Shown here in pieces: positions 14,190 to 33,123 of a stretch of 41,123 bases of DNA. Position 1 is the stretch's first letter. Every line of letters starts with the position of its first letter. Position numbers and translations under genes: made by a program. A model generated the notes under the pieces. That model was given only the letters and a program-made list of their open reading frames with translations, was not told the DNA's origin and did not search any database. Source of the stretch: Pirellulaceae bacterium (lineage in GTDB: Bacteria > Planctomycetota > Planctomycetia > Pirellulales > Pirellulaceae); assembly GCA_011087765.1 (NCBI GenBank), contig JAALLA010000009.1, positions 1 through 41,123 of the forward strand. The letters run 5' to 3'.

Positions 14190-14217
14190 TAAAAGTCCAC
14201 TCTGATGTTGCCGACAA
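14190..14217 (+). promoter_or_regulatory. Candidate sigma-28 (FliA-type) promoter of the flagellar cluster
   Basis: TAAA at 14190-14193 and GCCGACAA at 14210-14217 resemble the flagellar sigma-28 consensus TAAA-N15-GCCGATAA, with one mismatch in the -10 and 16 nt of spacing (15 nt if AAAA is used). It lies 58 bp before the start of the first gene of a flagellar gene cluster. Support is the sequence match plus context only. Confidence 0.45.
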
Positions 14218-14275: not shown

Positions 14276-14800
14276 ATGCAATTGAATCGCCGCCGAGTAA
14301 TGCCCGAAGGTGACAAAACCTCCGCTCAAAACATTGGACAATTAATCCACGATGTTCTTGAGAGCTATCGCCCTGAAATGGCTGGCAAAAACGTCTTGCT
14401 CGAAACAGACTTTGATTCAGTAGAGGCATGCGTTGCCACCTCGCAAATTCAATCCATCGTGTCATCTCTAATAGAAAATGCACTTGAACCAATGACACAT
14501 GGCGGTGAAATCTCAGTCACACTAATCGACGGCAAGTACCAATGGGAACTTGAGGTCGCCGATTCTTTGGGCATGACCCTTGGTAGCGTTGAGACCGCAG
14601 CTCAACCTACCGATAAAATGCTGCCCTTGATCATCCCATTCCCCGAATCAAAACAGCTTAGAGACGCTCACCGGACCGCAATTTCTCAAGGTGCCCAAAT
14701 CGACACCTGGAATTGCCCGCAAGGCGGAACCGCTCATGTTCTCACCGTCCCGCGACGACACAAAAACGAAAACCAGGAAAACTGGTTTTCGAAATTTTAA
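14276..14800 (+). CDS. Orphan GHKL/histidine-kinase-like ATPase domain protein
   Basis: The 174-aa protein looks like a stand-alone HATPase_c domain. Residues about 20-60 match the region that leads into the ATP-binding fold. The N box is SLIENALEPM (E67, N68), and a degenerate G1 box VADSLGM (D96, G99) lacks the first glycine of DxGxG. GGTAHVLTVP (residues 150-159) matches the G2/GT block. There is no phosphoacceptor histidine domain, sensor or membrane segment. It precedes the FliF-like gene by 51 bp, so it is likely co-transcribed with flagellar genes. It could be a regulator like an anti-sigma or CheA fragment, or a degenerate kinase. ATP binding is uncertain given the altered G1 box. Confidence 0.65.
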   Translation: MQLNRRRVMPEGDKTSAQNIGQLIHDVLESYRPEMAGKNVLLETDFDSVEACVATSQIQSIVSSLIENALEPMTHGGEISVTLIDGKYQWELEVADSLGMTLGSVETAAQPTDKMLPLIIPFPESKQLRDAHRTAISQGAQIDTWNCPQGGTAHVLTVPRRHKNENQENWFSKF

Positions 14801-14851
14801 ACTAATGAGTCCCTGACGCACTTGAGTAACCTCCAACCTACTGACAATCTG

Positions 14852-16366
14852 ATGGACACCAAGCCAATCACAATCGAAACCGTAATCAGATTCGCCAAAC
14901 AGCGGCGCATCCGGGCACTCTCTGTCGGCATTATCATGCTCGCTACCCTCGCTGCATTTCAAGTCAAACAACAGACGAGCGAATCACGTTTATGCGAACT
15001 TTACCCCAATGCTAAATTGACCGAAGGCGAATTATATCGCCTTGAATTCGCCCTAATCCGTGAAGGTCTCGAAGAATTTGAAACAAACACCGAAGGCAAG
15101 CTATTGGTTCCAACCAACAAACGACTTGAATACATCAAGGCGATTGCAAGGCAAAACGAAGAACCTGTGGACTACCGGAAATCAGATGACAATAACAAGG
15201 CAGCCCCGAGCATCTTTCTACCAAAGTCCGCACGCGATGCTATAACGCTCGAAACCAAGAAAAAGAAAATTGAGAAGACTATTCTTAGATTGCCATACAT
15301 CGTAGAGGCAAGCTTTGAAATGGACCAACCAATCGGATTTTCAGCCTTTCAAAAACAACAGAACCGAGCCGCCATTTCTCTTGCCACCAAAGACAATCTT
15401 CCACTCACAGAAGAACGTGCAAAAACGATCAAGGCGATCATTCAAGTCGCAGCCGGCGTCGATCTAAAAGACATTGTCATGATCGACCTTAAAACAGGGC
15501 TGATTCATAACGAACCCCAGTCACCCAACACCAACAACTCCCCCCAAGTCGCCACTGATATTTCCGAAGTACAGCGTTTTTGTGAAACTCAAATCAACCA
15601 GGCGCTTGCCATGTATCCGGAAATCAAAGCAACCGTAGCCGTCAGAATTAATAAGGACATTTCCAATTCCGCTATAGACCAACAAGTAGTAGAAAATCAG
15701 CCACAAGGATTGAATTCTCGCAAATCCTCATTTCTTCAGGCTGGAGCTAACGACGTGATAAAACTTGAAACCGCTGTCTATCCAAAGCCAACTGGTGAAA
15801 TACAAACGGATTCAACACAAGAGACAATGACTAAAGTCGTTTCGATTTCCATCGATGTTCCCGAGAAACTGATCACCGAACGCACCCAATCCTCGCCAAC
15901 TCAACTTACTCCGAGTGCTCAAAATTCTGGCAACTTGAATCAAGACGCGTTCAACACTCAGTTTAAAAAACTCCAATCCGAAATATCCCAGAAGGTCGAA
16001 TCATCCCTTTTATCTACACCCGACCTAAAATGCGATGAATCAATCGCTTTTAACTTGATTCCAGCAACCACAACTTCGACAGTCCCCTTGGATGTGAGAC
16101 TTAAAAAAATCGCCGCAGAGAACTGGCCATCGGGAATTGTCTTACTGGTAGGTTTGATACTTTTGGTATCTATTTCACGAGGGTCAGATCCGCTTCCACT
16201 GGCCGACAACTCCCAATTCTCAGGAAGTAGCCAGCACTCCAGTACAATTCCTGTAAGTGCTTCCGAATCTTCATCCGATTCAGAAACTCGACTAACGCAA
16301 TTGATTGAAAAAGATCCAGATGCGGCAGCAAGAGTTATTGAGTCCTGGATACGAGACGCTGCCTAA
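14852..16366 (+). CDS. fliF: Divergent FliF (flagellar MS-ring protein)
   Basis: MS-ring protein that anchors the flagellar basal body and houses the export gate. The FliF architecture is visible despite low similarity. A membrane helix lies at about residues 22-37, then ring-building motif 1 (about 48-105). Motif 2 (about 140-218) matches FliF around its 'SARV...LAIP' segment and ends in KDIVMIDLKTG. An RBM3-like collar region (about 238-345) is followed by the second membrane helix at 425-442. The C-terminal tail DPDAAARVIESWIRD matches the FliG-binding end of FliF. At 504 aa it is near the usual 550. A TTG at 14822 would add 10 residues; the ATG at 14852 is preferred. It stands four genes before fliQ in the same direction, which supports the call. 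Confidence 0.75.
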   Translation: MDTKPITIETVIRFAKQRRIRALSVGIIMLATLAAFQVKQQTSESRLCELYPNAKLTEGELYRLEFALIREGLEEFETNTEGKLLVPTNKRLEYIKAIARQNEEPVDYRKSDDNNKAAPSIFLPKSARDAITLETKKKKIEKTILRLPYIVEASFEMDQPIGFSAFQKQQNRAAISLATKDNLPLTEERAKTIKAIIQVAAGVDLKDIVMIDLKTGLIHNEPQSPNTNNSPQVATDISEVQRFCETQINQALAMYPEIKATVAVRINKDISNSAIDQQVVENQPQGLNSRKSSFLQAGANDVIKLETAVYPKPTGEIQTDSTQETMTKVVSISIDVPEKLITERTQSSPTQLTPSAQNSGNLNQDAFNTQFKKLQSEISQKVESSLLSTPDLKCDESIAFNLIPATTTSTVPLDVRLKKIAAENWPSGIVLLVGLILLVSISRGSDPLPLADNSQFSGSSQHSSTIPVSASESSSDSETRLTQLIEKDPDAAARVIESWIRDAA

Positions 16367-16606
16367 ACAAAACGCCACGTTGCATCACTTTCGGTCAACC
16401 GCAAAGCGAAAAGTGCTTTCCCGAGTTTAGCAAATGCTAGCGTCAATTGACCTTGCGAGGCTCGGTAAATTCCGCGAAAAGTCTTGCCCGTGATCCTCTG
16501 GAGAGATTGAGCGAGGCCCAGGCGATCATGCTGATTTTTTACGTGCGTCTTTAGAAGATTATTCCACACCGACCTGTAATCGTTATCGTCCGACAAGGCC
16601 TCTGAG

Positions 16607-17467
16607 ATGAGACAAATTTTCAAATTCAACAAAACAGTTTTGTCTCTCGGTAGATCCGTTAGAGCTTGCGGCTTACTTGCCTGCCTCCTGGTTTTATTGT
16701 CTACATGGATACTGCCTGACAGTTGTAGTTTTGCACAAACTAACTTCCAAAATGGGGCGGCAAAAATACCTGTGGAAGCGGATACTTTTAAAATAGAATT
16801 CCCGGAGTTTGACGACGACGAGTGGGATGGGACTAATCAAACAAACCACACTGCAGATCCCGCGCTCCCTCCAAAACCCGATCCAATTGTCACAATACCG
16901 CCCGCCAAGAACGAGCAAGATTCAACTGTTACAAAACTATCAAGTTTTGGAACTGCATTCACAGATGTTGAATCCTGGATTGGAAAATTCAAAAGACTGA
17001 CCGCCTCTTCCGACGTTGGAAGGATGCTCGGCAGCCTTGCCCTGGTACTCGGCCTTTACTTCGGATTCGTTTGGATCATGCGAAAACTAAGCCCGTCCGG
17101 CAATCAAAACCTACCCCGAGAAGTCCTTGAGCTGATGGGGCAAATCCCTTTCGGTCCTAAGCGGCACCTGCAACTAATTCGCTTGGGCAGCAAACTCTTA
17201 TTAATTATCAATAGCGCAGAAGGCTCCCAGGCAATTGGGGAAATCACTGACCCAAATGAAGTTGAGTACCTGGTCGCGTTATGCAGCGGCCGCCGACATC
17301 CTTTTCAACCGAAAATGAGACCTGCCCCTGCGGCCAACGCGCCCTCGCCTCCTTCGCCACCGTCTCCACCAGCCCAACCCCAGGCTCAGCAACAAAACAA
17401 CCTTGCCAATATCCTCCGGACGCTTGACCTGTCTGGCCATTCAAACAACTCGGTATTCGAAGCCTAA
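16607..17467 (+). CDS. fliO: FliO-like flagellar biosynthesis protein
   Basis: FliO helps assemble the FliP-FliQ-FliR export gate in the inner membrane. The 286-aa protein starts with a signal-like hydrophobic stretch (residues 20-37) and an acidic linker (about 60-130). The membrane helix at about 138-158 leads into the conserved FliO core: REVLELMGQIPFGPKRHLQL (171-190), the strand GSKLLLIIN and EYLVALCS. The C-terminal 50 residues are Pro/Ala/Gln-rich. The core looks intact, while the long exported N-terminus and the proline-rich tail are extra relative to E. coli FliO (121 aa). It lies 240 bp after the FliF-like gene and directly before fliP. Confidence 0.85.
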   Translation: MRQIFKFNKTVLSLGRSVRACGLLACLLVLLSTWILPDSCSFAQTNFQNGAAKIPVEADTFKIEFPEFDDDEWDGTNQTNHTADPALPPKPDPIVTIPPAKNEQDSTVTKLSSFGTAFTDVESWIGKFKRLTASSDVGRMLGSLALVLGLYFGFVWIMRKLSPSGNQNLPREVLELMGQIPFGPKRHLQLIRLGSKLLLIINSAEGSQAIGEITDPNEVEYLVALCSGRRHPFQPKMRPAPAANAPSPPSPPSPPAQPQAQQQNNLANILRTLDLSGHSNNSVFEA

Positions 17468-17484
17468 TCAGTAATATTTTTTAA

Positions 17485-18543
17485 TTGTTGACCTTGCACA
17501 CTTATCATTCAAAAACGATTCCTGAAACTGCCTTACTGCGGTGCTGCGCAATAATCGTGTTAAGCATTGGGTTTTTTATTAACACCCAGTCCGTTTCAGC
17601 GCAATTGTCAATCACAGAAACGCCTCCGCATACTAACCTCGATTCCACCGGTATTGATGCTGAGAAGCCCGGTTCAGAATTAACCAGCGTTCAAGATTCT
17701 CAAACGCAAACAGCTACAGACCAGCTGCCCCGCGAGGTGAGGAATCAACTTGGATTAGCAGATAATTCCTCTTCCAGCACACCTGCACAGACTCCTTCAC
17801 CTGAAACCACCCCTGCTTCCGACCAACCTTCGCTTACTGCTTTTCTATCTTCACCGACTGACCAACTCACATCTCCTACAGGTTTGACTTCATCGATTAA
17901 GGTTGCTCTGATTCTGGCAACTTTAAGTCTAGCGCCTGCGATTGTCTTAATGACCACCTGCTATGTAAGAGTAATTGTGGTTTTGACCCTGCTCAAACAG
18001 GCATTTGGCGCACAACAATTACCACCAACTCAAGTTTTGACAGCTCTTTCACTGTTCGTAACGTTGTTGATCATGACCCCTGTGTGGACCGAAGTAAAAC
18101 AGGAAGCAATCGATCCGTATACACAAACAGAAAACGGCATCAGTTGGGAAGAAGCGTGGACCCGCGGCATCGCGCCGGTGAAAACTTTCATGGCCAACCA
18201 AATTGAAGCGGCTGGAAACGCGGAATCGATTGCGGTGTTTTATAAATACGTACCGGAATACTCCGAGGCAGCACCCTCCAGCGCGCAAGATGTCCCAATC
18301 AATGTCCTGCTACCTGCCTTTATGGTTAGTGAACTCAAAGTGGCGTTCTTACTTGGATTTCAAATCTTCCTGCCGTTTTTAGTTCTCGACTTAGTTGTAT
18401 CTTCCGTCACTGTTTCCACCGGGATGCTAATGCTGCCTCCTACCATGGTTAGCTTTCCTCTGAAATTGATACTGTTTGTATTGGTTGACGGCTGGAATCT
18501 GGTTGTCGGAATGTTACTGCAGAGCTTCATTCCAATCACCTGA
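17485..18543 (+). CDS. fliP: Flagellar export gate protein FliP with long N-terminal extension
   Basis: Core membrane subunit of the flagellar type III export gate. Residues about 135-352 match FliP over its whole usual length, including APAIVLMTTCYVRVIVVLTL (about 150-169), LPPTQVL, the loop before FMVSELKVAFLLGF and the C-terminal LMLPPTMVSFPLKL. Residues 1-40 form a signal peptide (SVSA-Q), followed by about 90 residues rich in Ser, Thr, Pro and Gln. Many FliP proteins have a signal, but this linker is unusually long. The start is TTG at 17485; no ATG is available before the signal core, and no good Shine-Dalgarno is seen. It is 17 bp after fliO. Confidence 0.92.
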   Translation: MLTLHTYHSKTIPETALLRCCAIIVLSIGFFINTQSVSAQLSITETPPHTNLDSTGIDAEKPGSELTSVQDSQTQTATDQLPREVRNQLGLADNSSSSTPAQTPSPETTPASDQPSLTAFLSSPTDQLTSPTGLTSSIKVALILATLSLAPAIVLMTTCYVRVIVVLTLLKQAFGAQQLPPTQVLTALSLFVTLLIMTPVWTEVKQEAIDPYTQTENGISWEEAWTRGIAPVKTFMANQIEAAGNAESIAVFYKYVPEYSEAAPSSAQDVPINVLLPAFMVSELKVAFLLGFQIFLPFLVLDLVVSSVTVSTGMLMLPPTMVSFPLKLILFVLVDGWNLVVGMLLQSFIPIT

Positions 18544-18613
18544 CCTAGGTCAACAAGAAAACAAATTCCCCTCCGTCCTTCCGTCTAATTACGCGATCTC
18601 ACTGGATCACAAG

Positions 18614-19174
18614 ATGAACCCCGAAGATGCAATCGATTTCAGTCGCGAAGCCATGAAAACATGCATGCTAGTGGGAGGCCCGATCCTCGTAACAAGCCTG
18701 CTCGTCGGCTTAATCATTGGCATCATTCAGACCATGACTCAGGTTCAGGATCAAACCGTGTCGTTCGTTCCCAAAATCCTCATACTGGTTGCCGTGATTG
18801 GGATCTGCCTCCCCTGGCTTACCGAACGCATGACTGACTTTGCTCGGCTCTCATTTGAAAAACCAATGACTCAATGGTCCAATTCGCCACCCCCCACTCT
18901 ATTCGCCAAGACTTCAGCATTAGAAGCGGAACGCAACCCCATCGACCACGCCGCTGATACAATTGCGACAAAAGACGCCACCAATCAGGATGCCACTCAT
19001 CCACAGCCGGACAATTCTATCTTCTCGCTAATCGGGAAATTCCAAAAGCTTGAGCAATCGCCGTCGACACAGACCGAAGGCAACTCGCCCGCCCCCTCCG
19101 GCGCCTCCAACAACCCATTCTCACTACCTCATTATCGCGTATCCAAAATACCCCGGACTGAAAAAGGCGGGTAA
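18614..19174 (+). CDS. fliQ: Flagellar export gate protein FliQ with C-terminal extension
   Basis: Small two-helix subunit of the export gate. Residues 1-88 match FliQ: MNPEDAIDFSREAMKT, membrane helix at 17-38 with VGLIIGIIQT, MTQVQDQTVSFVPKI (41-55), and helix 2 at 55-72 ending in LPWLTERM. FliQ is normally about 89 aa. Here 98 more residues follow, rich in Ser, Pro, Asn, Thr and Gln, without membrane segments. The ATG at 18614 matches the family's start. The frame stays open further left only because it overlaps fliP. It ends 2 bp before fliR, which has a Shine-Dalgarno (AAGGCGG) inside the fliQ end. Confidence 0.9.
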   Translation: MNPEDAIDFSREAMKTCMLVGGPILVTSLLVGLIIGIIQTMTQVQDQTVSFVPKILILVAVIGICLPWLTERMTDFARLSFEKPMTQWSNSPPPTLFAKTSALEAERNPIDHAADTIATKDATNQDATHPQPDNSIFSLIGKFQKLEQSPSTQTEGNSPAPSGASNNPFSLPHYRVSKIPRTEKGG

Positions 19175-19176
19175 CG

Positions 19177-19953
19177 ATGGATTCGGCATTGATCTTTTTC
19201 CTTGCGTTCTCCCGGGTTGCATCATTAGTGATGACCGCCCCGATATTCGGCAGTCGAGCGGTACCACTCAAGATTCGACTCGGAATTGCAGTGCTTTTAA
19301 GCCTGACTGCATTCCCGTTGATCATTCCACCCGAATTCGAACCAACCAATCTTGAGAGTCTCTTCTCTGCAATCTTCTGTGAAGTTGTGATTGGCTCACT
19401 GTTAGGATTGGGAGTCATGATCATGTTTTCAGCTGCTCAATTTGCTGGAACCGTTATTGGCCAAATGGCTGGAATTCAAATTTCAAATACTCTAGATCCC
19501 CAAACTGGCGAAAACTCTTCTACCATCAGCCAAATGTTTGCCGTGCTCTCATTGGCTGCATTTGCCTTAGCTGGCGGCCCTGAATTAGTCGTCTCAGCAC
19601 TTCTTGATACCTTTATTTACCTGCCACTTGGGACCGAATTGGCACCCCATCGGGTAAGCGAAATTTTAGTCACGCTTTTACAACAAAGCTTCATACTAAC
19701 ACTTCGCGGTGTTGCCCCTGCAGTTGCCGCAATGCTTATCGCAACCATCGTAATAGGGTTCGTCAGCCGAACTTACCCGCAGATGAATCTCTTAGGCATG
19801 GGGCTCAGCTCCAATCTTATCGTGATGTTTCTCGCTGTGTTTTTGACGTTAGGAGGAAGTGTTTGGCTATTTGTCGACGATCTAGAACACTTCGTTTCGA
19901 TGATCACAGATTCCATGCAATCTTCGATCAAAGAGGTCGCAAAAAATGAGTGA
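19177..19953 (+). CDS. fliR: Flagellar export gate protein FliR
   Basis: Membrane subunit that completes the FliP5Q4R1 export gate. About six hydrophobic segments span the 258 residues. Family stretches are recognisable: FSRVASLVMTAPIFGSRAVP near the N-terminus (residues 7-26), FAGTVIGQMAGIQ (about 88-100) and the C-terminal half with SRTYPQMNLLGMGLSSN. The length is normal. The ATG at 19177 has an AAGGCGG Shine-Dalgarno about 8 bp upstream, inside the end of fliQ. Its stop overlaps flhB by 8 bp (ATGAGTGA), which indicates translational coupling. Confidence 0.93.
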   Translation: MDSALIFFLAFSRVASLVMTAPIFGSRAVPLKIRLGIAVLLSLTAFPLIIPPEFEPTNLESLFSAIFCEVVIGSLLGLGVMIMFSAAQFAGTVIGQMAGIQISNTLDPQTGENSSTISQMFAVLSLAAFALAGGPELVVSALLDTFIYLPLGTELAPHRVSEILVTLLQQSFILTLRGVAPAVAAMLIATIVIGFVSRTYPQMNLLGMGLSSNLIVMFLAVFLTLGGSVWLFVDDLEHFVSMITDSMQSSIKEVAKNE

Positions 19954-20698
19954 GTCAGTCCAAGACCGAATCCACCAGGCAACCCCCGGCCGTCGGCAAC
20001 AGGCACGACAGGATGGCGATGTCGTCAAAAGCCACGAACTGGCAGCCGCCGTCCAGATGCTGGGCGCGATTGCGATCACTTATTACCTGCTTGGCAATGT
20101 AAGCCACTGGATTCGCAACTGGACTACTGAAACCTGGACAATGGCTCCCGGTAACCTCAGCATGTCCAGTCAAGATTTCACGGAACAGATCCAACACACA
20201 ATCCTGGGGGTTGTTACGCAACTCGCGCCACTGTTGTGCCTTTTAGTTGTTGTTGGAGTGATTTCCCACTGGATTCAATCTGGACCACTCTTATTACCCA
20301 AACGAGTCTCCCTTGATCCGACACGATTAGCTTCCGGCACCTGGAGAAACATCTTTTCCATCAGTGGCCTTTTTACAATTATCACCGGGGTACCCAAAAC
20401 AATTCTCGCGGGAATCGCGGGTGGAACGAGCGTTTGGATTCAACAAGATAGTTTTTTTCAGTTGGCAAATCTGCCAATCGATTTAATGGCGTCCAAAATG
20501 TTTGGTCTCGTAATGAGTGTCTCGCTGCACGTCGCAATTACGCTTTTGTTTGCATCAATCTTTGACTTTTTCATGAAATTTGTCAGCCATGAAAATCGGC
20601 TAAAAATGACCGACCAACAATTGCGGGACGAAATGAGAATGCAAAACGGCGATCCTCAGATTCATCGGCGGAGACAGGAATTGAGCCGTTTAAGATGA
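19946..20698 (+). CDS. flhB: FlhB membrane domain only; autocleaving C-terminal domain absent
   Basis: FlhB normally forms the lateral part of the export gate and, through its C-terminal domain, switches export substrate specificity after self-cleavage at NPTH. Here residues 1-250 match only the membrane part: the N-terminal ATPGRRQQARQDGDVVKSHE (12-31), four membrane segments (about 36-50, 88-110, 140-162 and 186-208) and the cytoplasmic linker to NGDPQIHRRRQELSRLR. The protein ends there, where family members continue for about 110 residues. No NPTH-encoding frame follows: the next gene, on the other strand, begins its 3' end 42 bp later. Either the domain is encoded elsewhere or the gene is a functional shortened form or a remnant. 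Confidence 0.88.
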   Translation: MSESVQDRIHQATPGRRQQARQDGDVVKSHELAAAVQMLGAIAITYYLLGNVSHWIRNWTTETWTMAPGNLSMSSQDFTEQIQHTILGVVTQLAPLLCLLVVVGVISHWIQSGPLLLPKRVSLDPTRLASGTWRNIFSISGLFTIITGVPKTILAGIAGGTSVWIQQDSFFQLANLPIDLMASKMFGLVMSVSLHVAITLLFASIFDFFMKFVSHENRLKMTDQQLRDEMRMQNGDPQIHRRRQELSRLR

Positions 20699-20740
20699 AC
20701 TCCCTAAAACAACTGCCTTCCTAGCAATAACGCGATTGGC

Positions 20741-21901
20741 TCAGCCCGCACTCTGACCAGACGGACTTGAATATCCAAACACATCCATATAGCGATGCCA
20801 GTTGTTATCAATTTCAAGTTCAAGCGAAGGCTCAAGCGTAAACGGATTTTTCTGATGGTTCTTTTTACGTTCGAAATACTCGACCAATGCCGGCTCTAAC
20901 TCCCCAAATCCATCCATCTCAAGCTGATCATAAACTCGTTCCATCTCGGAAATCGGCTGGGTTGTGAGAGTTTCAAAATTCACTTCAACCAATTGATTTT
21001 TGGGAATTGAGTCACGTTGGTTGAAGTACGCCGAATACATCAAATCCTTGCATTCGAAAATATAATTTTTGAGCCAAGTATCATCGTATCTTGGAATCTG
21101 AAAACCCTGAAGTGAATCCAAGAGTTTCCAAAGCCTCATCGTGGAAGGCACCAACTTGTGCGGATGCCGCGCCATATGCACAAACTTCGCCCCCGGAAAC
21201 CACTCGACCAACTGCTCTAAACGCCCAGTATGAGGCGGTGACTTCAGGACCAATTGGGAATCATATCTAACGGTAAGCGCCTTGAGAAAATAATTCATTG
21301 CCCCATGCAATTTTTCCTGCACCTCGTGATCGGCATCGGATAATTTTAGATTCAGATGCTCTCGACTCGGCTGGTTGGGAAACGCAATTCTTCGGTATGG
21401 AGTTGGCGCGCCATAAGCACACAACGCGAAATCGTCTTCTTGAGGGGACCCAACACCCATCGACATGTTGTCCATAGGTCGTTGCCGGGGCATCAGCAAT
21501 TTTAAAAACGGGTAAAAAAAGAATCGAGATGCAAGAAAGTGATTGGGAATAAACGCATCAAAATTAGTTGGGAATGCTAAACGCGAATCCATTGACATTA
21601 ACTCATGCATCAATGTCGTACCTGATCGCCAGTGACCGATAATAAAAACTGGCGGCTTTTTTAACTGAACCGACTCGATTACATTCCCGTGAGTGACATC
21701 CTGAACCTGAGCCAGAATCGAATTCATCAACGCACACCCGCCACCCAAAGCAAACATTGGATACCTTAACGGATGGATCTTAAACCGGTTTTCTTTCATC
21801 AACCGCAGGTAGTCGCCTAGCCGCATTCCATTCCAAAACCTTGGTGCCCAGGGCGGATACCAATTAGGTTTCGGTTTTGATTTCGTTGATGTATTTGACA
21901 T
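20741..21901 (-). CDS. Sulfotransferase family protein
   Basis: Transfers sulfuryl groups from PAPS to an unknown acceptor. The 5'-phosphosulfate loop is PVFIIGHWRSGTTLMHELM (residues 84-102, GHWRSGTT core) and the 3'-phosphate motif is around RHPHKLVPS (R245, S253). VLKSPPHTGRL (218-228) is typical of the bacterial Sulfotransfer_3 group. There is no signal peptide; the hydrophobic stretches (about 46-60, 122-136) are short. At 386 aa it is normal for the group. It converges with the flagellar cluster and is upstream of nothing co-oriented within 95 bp, so it is perhaps a separate unit. Sulfated polysaccharide or lipid are possible targets, but the sequence does not say. Confidence 0.85.
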   Translation of the reverse strand: MSNTSTKSKPKPNWYPPWAPRFWNGMRLGDYLRLMKENRFKIHPLRYPMFALGGGCALMNSILAQVQDVTHGNVIESVQLKKPPVFIIGHWRSGTTLMHELMSMDSRLAFPTNFDAFIPNHFLASRFFFYPFLKLLMPRQRPMDNMSMGVGSPQEDDFALCAYGAPTPYRRIAFPNQPSREHLNLKLSDADHEVQEKLHGAMNYFLKALTVRYDSQLVLKSPPHTGRLEQLVEWFPGAKFVHMARHPHKLVPSTMRLWKLLDSLQGFQIPRYDDTWLKNYIFECKDLMYSAYFNQRDSIPKNQLVEVNFETLTTQPISEMERVYDQLEMDGFGELEPALVEYFERKKNHQKNPFTLEPSLELEIDNNWHRYMDVFGYSSPSGQSAG

Positions 21902-31383: not shown

Positions 31384-33123
31384 TCAACTCGTTTCGGTTT
31401 GTGGGAAAAAATCGCATTCTGTGGACGGATGACTATATTCGTAAGGGCCTCGGCGAACGATGGGCTGGACGTCAAAATTTCCGTGCGGCGGTGGACTAAC
31501 GGTCGTCCACTCCAGCGTATTTGCATTCCAGGGATTGCGGCCGGCTTTCGCCCCAAAAAACATACTGCTGAAAAAATTAGCTACAAAGATAAGTTGTGTC
31601 AGGCCCATTCCGATCGCACAGATCGTCATGAACTGGTTAAGCGGCAACAGATCCTTAAGCCCCTCGTAAATGTAAGGGTCAGCTACGCGTCGAGGCATTC
31701 GACTTAGAAAATGCATCGGGAAAAATGTGCCATTCAAAAAAACAAAGGTCAGAAAGAAATGAATCTTTCCTAACTTTTCATTCATCATTCGACCGAACAT
31801 TTTCGGAAACCAAAAATAGATTGCCCCGAGGACACCCAATACGCTACTGGCGAACAGGACGTAGTGAAGGTGAGCGACGATGTAGTAAGTGTCATGAATC
31901 ACGATATCCACCGGCGGTGCCGACATCACAATTCCGGACAATCCTCCGATCACGAACATGGAAACGAACCCGACACAAAACAACATCGGGGTCGTCAGTT
32001 GCAGTTTCCCGCCCCACAAGGTTCCGATCCAGTTAAAAACTTTGATCCCACTGGGCAAGGCAATTAACATCGTCGAAACCATAAAACTCATGGCCAACGT
32101 ATGATTCATGCCGGAGATAAACATGTGATGACCCCAGACGATAAAACCAAGCCCGGCGATTGCGGTAATGGAGTACACCATCGGCCGGTATCCGAAGAGC
32201 GGTTTTCTTGAGAAGCAAGAGATAATATCAGAGACCATTCCCATCGCCGGTAGAATCATGATATAGACCGCAGGATGCGAGTAGAACCAGAACAAGTGTT
32301 GCCAAAGCAATACTTGCCCACCGCCACTGGTCGCAACACCATTGTTAACTGCAATGTTCTCCGGTAGAAAAAAGCCGGTCATTAACAACCGATCTGACAA
32401 CTGCATAAGCAGGGCCGCAGTCAAAACAGGCAGTGCAAAGGCTTGCATGATTGCCGTGATAAACATCCCCCAAACGGTCATTGGCATTCGAAACATTGTC
32501 ATGCCCGGTGCCCGCATTTGAATAATCGTCGTCAGGTAATTGATCGATCCCATCATGGATGAAATTCCAACAAAGACCATCGCCAACAGCCATAACGACT
32601 GTGCATCCCCCTGAAACACGCTCAACGGCGGGTAGGAAGTCCAACCCGCTGCAGCACCGTATTCGGGCATGAAAAAGCTGAGGATGATACAGACGAATGC
32701 GGGCCACATGAACCAGTAACTCATCATGTTTAATCGCGGGAATGCCATATCCTCACCACCGACCATCAACGAAATCAAGTAGTTTCCAAACGCCCCCGCA
32801 AGAATTGGAATGATCACGAAAAAAATCATGATTGTCGCATGCATCGTGAACAACATATTGTAGAAACCGGGCGACATTTGCCCTCCCGATTCAGCAAACA
32901 GCATATGTCCAAAAATTGGCATATCCGACCAGGGCCATGCCAATTGCCAGCGAACCGCTAACGCTAGAAATCCACCTACAAAAAACCAAATCAATGATGA
33001 AAAAAGAAACTGTAGGCCAATGACCTTATGATCTGTTGCAAAAACGTAGGTCCAGACAAACCGGGAAACAACATTCCCCTTTGGTTCCGGTGTAATCGAA
33101 TTTTCAACAGTAACTTCTGCCAT
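31384..33123 (-). CDS. ctaD: Cytochrome c oxidase subunit I (A2-type haem-copper oxidase)
   Basis: Catalytic subunit that reduces O2 to water and pumps protons. Haem and copper ligands are all present: H95 and H420 for haem a, H418 for haem a3, and H283, H332 and H333 for CuB. Tyr287, which cross-links to H283, is present. The helix VI motif is YSHPAVYI (281-288) rather than GHPEVYI: the D-channel Glu is replaced and the YS motif is present, which marks the A2 subfamily. K361 (GIKVF) corresponds to the K-channel lysine. At 579 aa with 12 expected helices it is normal. It follows subunit II by 25 bp. Confidence 0.96.
   Translation of the reverse strand: MAEVTVENSITPEPKGNVVSRFVWTYVFATDHKVIGLQFLFSSLIWFFVGGFLALAVRWQLAWPWSDMPIFGHMLFAESGGQMSPGFYNMLFTMHATIMIFFVIIPILAGAFGNYLISLMVGGEDMAFPRLNMMSYWFMWPAFVCIILSFFMPEYGAAAGWTSYPPLSVFQGDAQSLWLLAMVFVGISSMMGSINYLTTIIQMRAPGMTMFRMPMTVWGMFITAIMQAFALPVLTAALLMQLSDRLLMTGFFLPENIAVNNGVATSGGGQVLLWQHLFWFYSHPAVYIMILPAMGMVSDIISCFSRKPLFGYRPMVYSITAIAGLGFIVWGHHMFISGMNHTLAMSFMVSTMLIALPSGIKVFNWIGTLWGGKLQLTTPMLFCVGFVSMFVIGGLSGIVMSAPPVDIVIHDTYYIVAHLHYVLFASSVLGVLGAIYFWFPKMFGRMMNEKLGKIHFFLTFVFLNGTFFPMHFLSRMPRRVADPYIYEGLKDLLPLNQFMTICAIGMGLTQLIFVANFFSSMFFGAKAGRNPWNANTLEWTTVSPPPHGNFDVQPIVRRGPYEYSHPSTECDFFPQTETS

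Follow-up and report, generated by a model that had tools for sequence, protein, structure and literature searches.

A flagellar export gate without an intact FlhB switch is kept by many planctomycetes

INTRODUCTION

The closest described counterpart of the locus studied here is the flagellar FliPQR-FlhB-FlhA export gate (PDB 6s3l; PMC7064499), in which FlhB carries a switch domain with an NPTH motif, and its N-terminus and linker sit at the gate entrance. The locus shares the proteins and gene order of this gate, but its FlhB lacks the switch domain, and relatives with comparable sets were found without rod, hook or filament genes. Consequences of losing the domain have been described in Salmonella, where its loss halts export of hook protein and the gate is locked in late mode once both the cleaved domain and Fluke are removed (PMC13344023). 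In a strain lacking the rod-hook genes and Fluke, either a stop at FlhB residue 258, which was one selected mutation, or a deletion of residues 270–383 led to FliK-independent export of FlgM, measured as a FlgM fusion (PMC13344023). Because the domain-less FlhB needed both the absence of Fluke and raised flagellar gene expression, truncation alone is insufficient in Salmonella (PMC13344023). The features of this locked gate, namely a FlhB without the cleaved domain and no rod-hook genes in the presence of FlgM and sigma-28, are likewise found in planctomycetes; the Salmonella case is engineered and also needs loss of Fluke, whereas in planctomycetes this state occurs naturally and repeatedly.

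Export-gate proteins have also been tied to a non-flagellar structure, the FliOPQR-FlhBA core complex or hat structure, which in C. jejuni persists without the FlhB C-terminal domain (PMC9380563). The genes involved there are those of a working flagellum, whereas the planctomycetes carry a dedicated gene set that has a FliA and a FlgM to itself. The secretin-less type III secretion system (T3SS) of Myxococcales is a flagellum-related core without motility parts that is conserved and has been argued to be functional; however, it belongs to a non-flagellar T3SS clade (PMC3459982), while FlhB, FliP, FliQ and FliR of the present locus favour flagellar models. Chlamydia, which is non-motile and belongs to the same superphylum, has flagellar FliF, FliI and FlhA, giving at least three flagellar orthologues beside an injectisome and no annotated FlhB (PMC2830194), whereas here the whole gate is kept. 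Incomplete sets of flagellar genes, and flagella lost in scattered lineages, have been described for bacteria and for freshwater planctomycetes (PMC12199754, PMC6461901); the former report mentions neither FlhB nor Planctomycetes, and the available parts of the latter, on flagellar loss, do not mention FlhB. One paper, as far as its available text goes, brings together Planctomycetes, FlhB, type III secretion and the term flagellar (PMC12316311). In the accessible portions of the literature searched, a FlhB lacking the switch was not reported for Planctomycetes, and no paper joined FlhB, autocleavage and planctomycetes.

RESULTS AND DISCUSSION

A core-only export gate operon with a short FlhB

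The stretch of DNA analysed, referred to as the window, comprises positions 1–41,123 of contig JAALLA010000009.1 from a Pirellulaceae bacterium (GCA_011087765.1), a MAG of 4.76 Mb in 371 contigs, 88% complete with 1% contamination. On the forward strand, the span 14276–20698 holds in order genes for a small histidine-kinase-like ATPase protein (174 aa, 14276–14800), a divergent FliF of the MS-ring (514 aa, 14822–16366), FliO (16607–17467), FliP (17485–18543), FliQ (186 aa, 18614–19174), FliR (19177–19953) and a short FlhB (19946–20698), the last two overlapping by 8 nt (flhB starts at 19946, fliR ends at 19953). The gene downstream of flhB lies on the opposite strand and ends at 20741. FliO was assigned by Pfam FliO above cut-off, FliP by Pfam FliP (4e-66) and TIGR01103 above cut-off, FliQ by Bac_export_3, FliR by Bac_export_1 and FlhB by Bac_export_2. 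For FlhB, FliP, FliQ and FliR, flagellar models outscore those of non-flagellar T3SS; the FlhB bit scores are 131 for the flagellar flhB model vs 111 for the SctU model, both under the cut-offs. The N-terminal extension of FliP and the C-terminal extension of FliQ are long relative to the family models.

The ATPase-like gene at the head of the operon, a position it also takes in some relatives, encodes a protein with 7 jackhmmer matches, itself counted, and a weak HATPase_c match under cut-off. The FliF-like protein had no Pfam match when searched alone, but jackhmmer tied it, from round 2 onward, to the genome's canonical FliF; two of its homologues in relatives match YscJ_FliF. Its C-terminus resembles the end of canonical FliF, which we take to be a putative FliG-binding motif.

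The flhB frame encodes 250 aa and terminates in MRMQNGDPQIHRRRQELSRLR directly before the stop codon. Pfam Bac_export_2 (PF01312) aligns to residues 6–248 at profile positions 1–237 of 335 (1.3e-44), and the protein therefore lacks the last ~98 profile positions, which correspond to the cytoplasmic switch domain. The N-terminal membrane domain common to FlhB and SctU is present and complete, the frame ends just past the GDP linker, and the autocleaving C-terminal NPTH domain is absent, so that reading frame and profile match bear out the original prediction, made from the letters alone, of a FlhB that stops at residue 250 beyond the linker. An AlphaFold model built with 29 sequences (mean pLDDT 87.7) had a single PDB match at E<=0.001, FlhB in chain K of the FliPQR-FlhB complex 6s3l, and the structural search returned nothing besides FlhB at this threshold. 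Residue 248 aligns to residue 249 of a 383-aa FlhB chain in the PDB, and the window protein thus ends ~7 residues before the Salmonella stop at 258.

The short FlhB retains 24 of the 32 residues conserved at >=85% across 38 canonical FlhBs, including the N-terminal gate residues and D207. Across 34 short FlhBs, R16, R17, A20, R21, G24 and S29 of the N-terminus, D207, and the linker residues M221, T222 and E229 are kept at 82–100%, and several loop residues fall to 21–58%. The helix 2-3 loop, the most conserved part of FlhB in PMC7064499, is less conserved in short FlhBs (0.44 vs 0.57 in canonical ones). As a separate observation, 25 of the 38 canonical planctomycete FlhBs read NPTE and not NPTH at the cleavage site (L005-L010, L013, L014, L016, L017, L021-L034 and others).

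A separate flagellar set in the same genome

The short FlhB had been considered as the organism's only FlhB, which was rejected: a second FlhB of 354 aa with NPTH intact is encoded at C370:16437-17450, adjoined by fliR, fliQ, FliF, FliG, rod/hook genes and FliI. This FliI is the only one above the curated cut-off in the genome, and none above cut-off was found for the window's own gate. The genome gave 6 rod/hook matches and 2 flagellin matches, the flagellin lying apart from the C370 set. Of two FlhA genes, one is on contig C206 with rod/hook genes, FliO, FliP and a FliA-type sigma factor; the other is on contig C141 together with a second FliA-type sigma factor and a FlgM-like protein (Pfam FlgM 1.2e-09, above cut-off). 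A second, divergent FlgM-like frame (L264:744-1091 in G000:C234; E 0.0013) lies directly 5' of a flagellin gene, so that a separate FlgM may serve the canonical flagellum.

The original prediction had named a second complete flhB as grounds for regarding the short one as a remnant. Such a gene is present; it belongs, however, to a flagellar set that is phylogenetically distinct from that of the window. The working flagellum of the organism is most likely this other set, with its full-length NPTH FlhB, rod/hook genes and flagellin. The window, with FliP, FliQ and FliR in the operon and the second FlhA on C141, belongs to a second, core-only flagellar export gate. The suggestion that the switch domain had become a separate, FlhX-like gene was not supported: a six-frame search of the MAG (88% complete) with TIGR00789 gave one match, within the full-length FlhB, and no stand-alone C-terminal domain.

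Distribution of FlhB classes among relatives

A FlhB match was found in 238 of 297 genomes of the class, from which 80 were picked to cover the FlhB classes and not as a random sample. Genomes were classified by FlhB alone, with a second-type FlhB defined as short, or full-length without N-P at the cleavage site. Second-type FlhB only was present in 43 of the 80 (25 short, 18 full-length without N-P), all 43 read through to the C-terminal end. The full-length class numbered 30, of which 12 were read to the NP motif and 16 assigned by a Pfam match to the profile end, the class of G002 and G192 resting on E-value; six genomes had no FlhB. G242, with a full-length FlhB carrying NSTH, a second FlhB match, one rod/hook match and no flagellin, stands outside these three classes, and G258 carries a second FlhB match without a class. 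In 12 further genomes a short FlhB occurs beside a full-length one, and the short FlhBs of these and of the 25 end within ~50 residues of the same linker. Comparison of FlhB length across relatives, which had been proposed as a check, thus shows that the short form recurs, and the short flhB is accordingly not a simple pseudogene, as had been argued.

Every genome of the full-length class had rod/hook genes, flagellin and FliI (30/30 each), and 23/30 had FlgM at E<=1e-5. Among the second-type-only genomes, rod/hook and flagellin matches were absent from 42 of 43; both occurred in G231, which has a short FlhB only and one FlhA, yet 3 matches to rod/hook and 1 to flagellin, perhaps from a canonical set that is fragmented. 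For rod/hook genes the difference between the two classes gives a Fisher p of 1e-19, a figure that overstates the evidence because the genomes are related, the tree being the better guide. FlhA was found in 43/43 second-type-only genomes and FlgM in 38/43 at E<=1e-5 (42/43 at E<=0.01), FliI above cut-off in 15/43 and a FliM/N domain in 31/43; neither of the latter two was found in 12/43. The six genomes without FlhB had no rod/hook, flagellin or FlhA match (0/6 each) and no FlgM at E<=1e-5, yet 4/6 matched FlgM at E<=0.01, so that weak FlgM matches mean little. No rod/hook or flagellin match was found in G277.

A FliA-type sigma gene adjoins FlhA in 19 of 21 second-type FlhA loci, and the remaining two (G152, G020) are cut near FlhA. 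FlgM, whose C-terminal region is conserved and alignable, adjoins both FlhA and FliA in the window genome, G098, G209 and G191, and lies mostly away from the gate genes in second-type-only genomes. Among minor features of the survey, the filament-less G098 has a single frame that fuses FliF to FliG (L079:4858-6762; Pfam YscJ_FliF and FliG_M), perhaps likewise at L072 and L094. Frames of ~500 aa whose match is restricted to the C-terminal half of FlhA (profile 309–321 to 654–656) occur apart from full FlhA at G005:C10:357603-358631, G016:C38:36083-37069, G035:C1:5629209-5630222 and G230:C1:2744771-2745808.

Phylogeny of the gate proteins

In a tree of concatenated FliP, FliQ, FliR and FlhB (59 rows), the window's set and the G260 second-type set form a group (100/99) close to further second-type sets from the f1 family, and the window genome's canonical set belongs to a different clade, shared with family f18, G018 and G025 (100/98-99). 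Presence versus absence of NPT required 5 changes (bootstrap range 4–6; at least 2 forced by starred branches) and short form versus the rest 7 changes (6–7; at least 4 forced). These counts come from a tree that leaves 17 of its 56 inner branches open, with less than half of the alignment filled in 7 of the 59 rows and long branches in several. A single origin, of the NPT-less state or of the short form, was shown by 0 of 200 bootstrap trees of the concatenated alignment. A quick tree of FlhB only was poorly resolved. In records titled Phycisphaer-, 14/14 FlhBs keep N-P at the cleavage site, which makes loss the likely direction of change. The tree needs several such losses, and FlhB would accordingly have lost either the N-P site or the full domain on several independent occasions. 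Named strains show both states: Rhodopirellula solitaria CA85 has a full-length FlhB without N-P, and the isolate Stieleria tagensis TO1_6 a short one. Stieleria is a member of the Pirellulaceae (PMC12254169), and the description of S. tagensis mentions neither motility, flagella nor swimming (PMC10541342).

A model for the switchless gate

The system is a variant of the flagellar export gate and not a new machine, with a function that we infer. That many planctomycetes keep the inner gate without the switch, also where hook and filament genes were not found, suggests that it is kept for another job, perhaps signalling. In the proposed course of events, the window's gate would derive from a planctomycete flagellar lineage inherited with the taxon. 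In many lineages the rod, hook and filament of that flagellum would have been lost and the gate kept, after which FlhB may have dropped either its NPTH site or the entire domain, in several separate events. On the strength of published work, the part now missing would hold the pocket in which rod/hook cargo docks, as well as the lock on early mode. Once rod and hook are gone, early cargo no longer exists, and the switch domain would be useless and so lost; a gate lacking it should therefore export no early cargo and stay in late mode. The original prediction had allowed that the switch might be done differently; more probably it is simply unnecessary, as 42/43 of the relatives' second-type-only genomes have no rod, hook or flagellin match. 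Complete loss of the domain does not appear to be required, because 18/43 keep a degenerate C-terminal domain. The putative retained cargo would be chiefly the anti-sigma factor FlgM, whose export could free FliA with no filament involved; with FlgM as its chief cargo, the gate would be a device for freeing FliA.

The short FlhB gate is probably still in use, and by analogy with Salmonella export of FlgM is the leading candidate function. The explanation as a whole, in which the core gate outlives the flagellum, the FlhB switch is repeatedly lost and the putative cargo is chiefly FlgM, is on balance favoured by a little. Held against it are the further needs of truncated FlhB in Salmonella, absence of Fluke and raised flagellar gene expression, the weak or missing FlgM in 5/43 and the 28/43 genomes without FliI above cut-off. 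More tentative, and rather short of probable, is the fuller proposal that the gate has recurrently been turned into a filament-less signalling device, locked in late mode, exporting FlgM and ruling a non-flagellar FliA regulon. Nature appears to have repeated a late-locking FlhB deletion several times, in bacteria without rod, hook and filament that mostly keep FlgM and sigma-28. If so, a flagellar assembly checkpoint would outlive the flagellum as a regulator, touching on two old questions, what use a type III export gate has without its structure and why FlhB bears a self-cleaving domain.

FlhA, sigma-28-like sites and possible non-flagellar use

The foremost alternative, somewhat unlikely in our estimate, is that the gate exports some other protein or builds a membrane structure, with FliA and FlgM kept for gene control only. 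The proposed FliOPQR-FlhBA core complex of nanotubes would be one possible example, and the gene content fits a nanotube-type core set. FlhA is consistent with such use. The FHIPEP-region loop is well kept in 21 second-type FlhAs, but an aromatic residue at 459 is found in only 2/21 vs 4/4 canonical rows, and T490 in 3/21 vs 4/4. These positions, in Salmonella numbering, are presumably the docking residues of the late-chaperone dimple. Their apparent erosion argues against export of chaperoned filament proteins, leaving FlgM a possible cargo. It would fit loss of filament-type cargo and lends no support in itself to a late-cargo gate. Standing against the alternative, no candidate cargo was found for it, and FlgM is the one known late cargo found retained in most of these genomes.

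Sigma-28-like sites were sought with a general sigma-28 consensus and a spacing of 16, picked after scanning 14–16 in the same loci. Within 350 bp 5' of flgM, sites resembling TAAA-N16-GCCGATAA occurred in 5/34 cases at <=1 mismatch (0.065 expected) and 10/34 at <=2 mismatches (0.295 expected), with expectations taken from random stretches of the same loci; this excess over chance counts for the favoured explanation. Second-type-only genomes (25 of the 34 flgM) accounted for 5 and 9 of these sites, canonical-only genomes (5) for 0 and 1, and genomes with both sets (4, the window's included) for 0 and 0. The window genome's own flgM has no such site at <=2 mismatches within 350 bp upstream. The window operon is preceded by TAAA-N16-GCCGACAA (14190–14217, forward strand; 86 bp before the first gene), with one mismatch to the consensus. 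This promoter match is suggestive only, since 0.4% of 2000 random 350-bp window stretches match as well at this spacing, four spacings were tried and a match just as good is found within another gene, at 32118. The consensus gave no clear site 5' of flagellin genes in 10 flagellin loci, and the promoter evidence therefore rests on flgM and the window operon.

In 12 filament-less genomes, TMAA-N16-GYCGATAA occurred 67 times vs 14 for its reversed control, in which dinucleotide content is not preserved. This excess, together with sites shared by three genomes, would suit a gate put to other use with FliA serving gene control. The pattern was found 48 times vs 4 in eight f16 genomes and 19 vs 10 in four g122 genomes, but it is no commoner than the control in G150 and G171 (5 vs 5 and 6 vs 4), and a good many of the sites fall within long frames. 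Sites recurring in three genomes each 5' of related genes were seen at L283/L302/L307, L280/L285/L295 and L322/L323/L327. The genes 3' of such shared sites may belong to a FliA regulon that is not flagellar; two of them gave no Pfam match in the short stretches tested.

Constraint on the short FlhB

The favoured reading, a gate retained mainly for FlgM, must also be set against a functionless, decaying remnant of a lost flagellum, which we judge improbable. Such decay would agree with the complete separate flagellar set of the window genome, the unequal presence of FliI, FliG and FliN among second-type sets, and proteins that are long-branched, less conserved and mostly higher in dN/dS than canonical ones; canonical FlhBs are the more conserved in every region compared. 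It would not account for FlhA and FlhB in 43/43 genomes across many genera, in frames without reported internal stops, or for the conserved FHIPEP-region loop and the FlgM kept in most. The one pair of short flhB genes with unsaturated dS (G150/G171) has dN 0.086, dS 0.574 and dN/dS ~0.15. Four more distant pairs range from 0.17 to 0.45 with dS near saturation, and three canonical pairs from 0.02 to 0.07. As dN/dS is low yet above that of canonical pairs, short flhB is, judged from codon changes, under purifying selection of looser constraint than canonical flhB.

It is very doubtful that the short FlhB uses, in trans, the switch domain of the other flagellum's full-length FlhB; both proteins are present in the window genome, but 25 genomes with a short FlhB have no other FlhB match. 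A sequencing error or assembly break near 20690, raised originally as a possible refutation and conceivable in a MAG of 371 contigs, can be set aside almost entirely, as no C-terminal domain lies elsewhere in the six frames searched and similar FlhB ends are common to dozens of genomes, the isolate Stieleria tagensis included.
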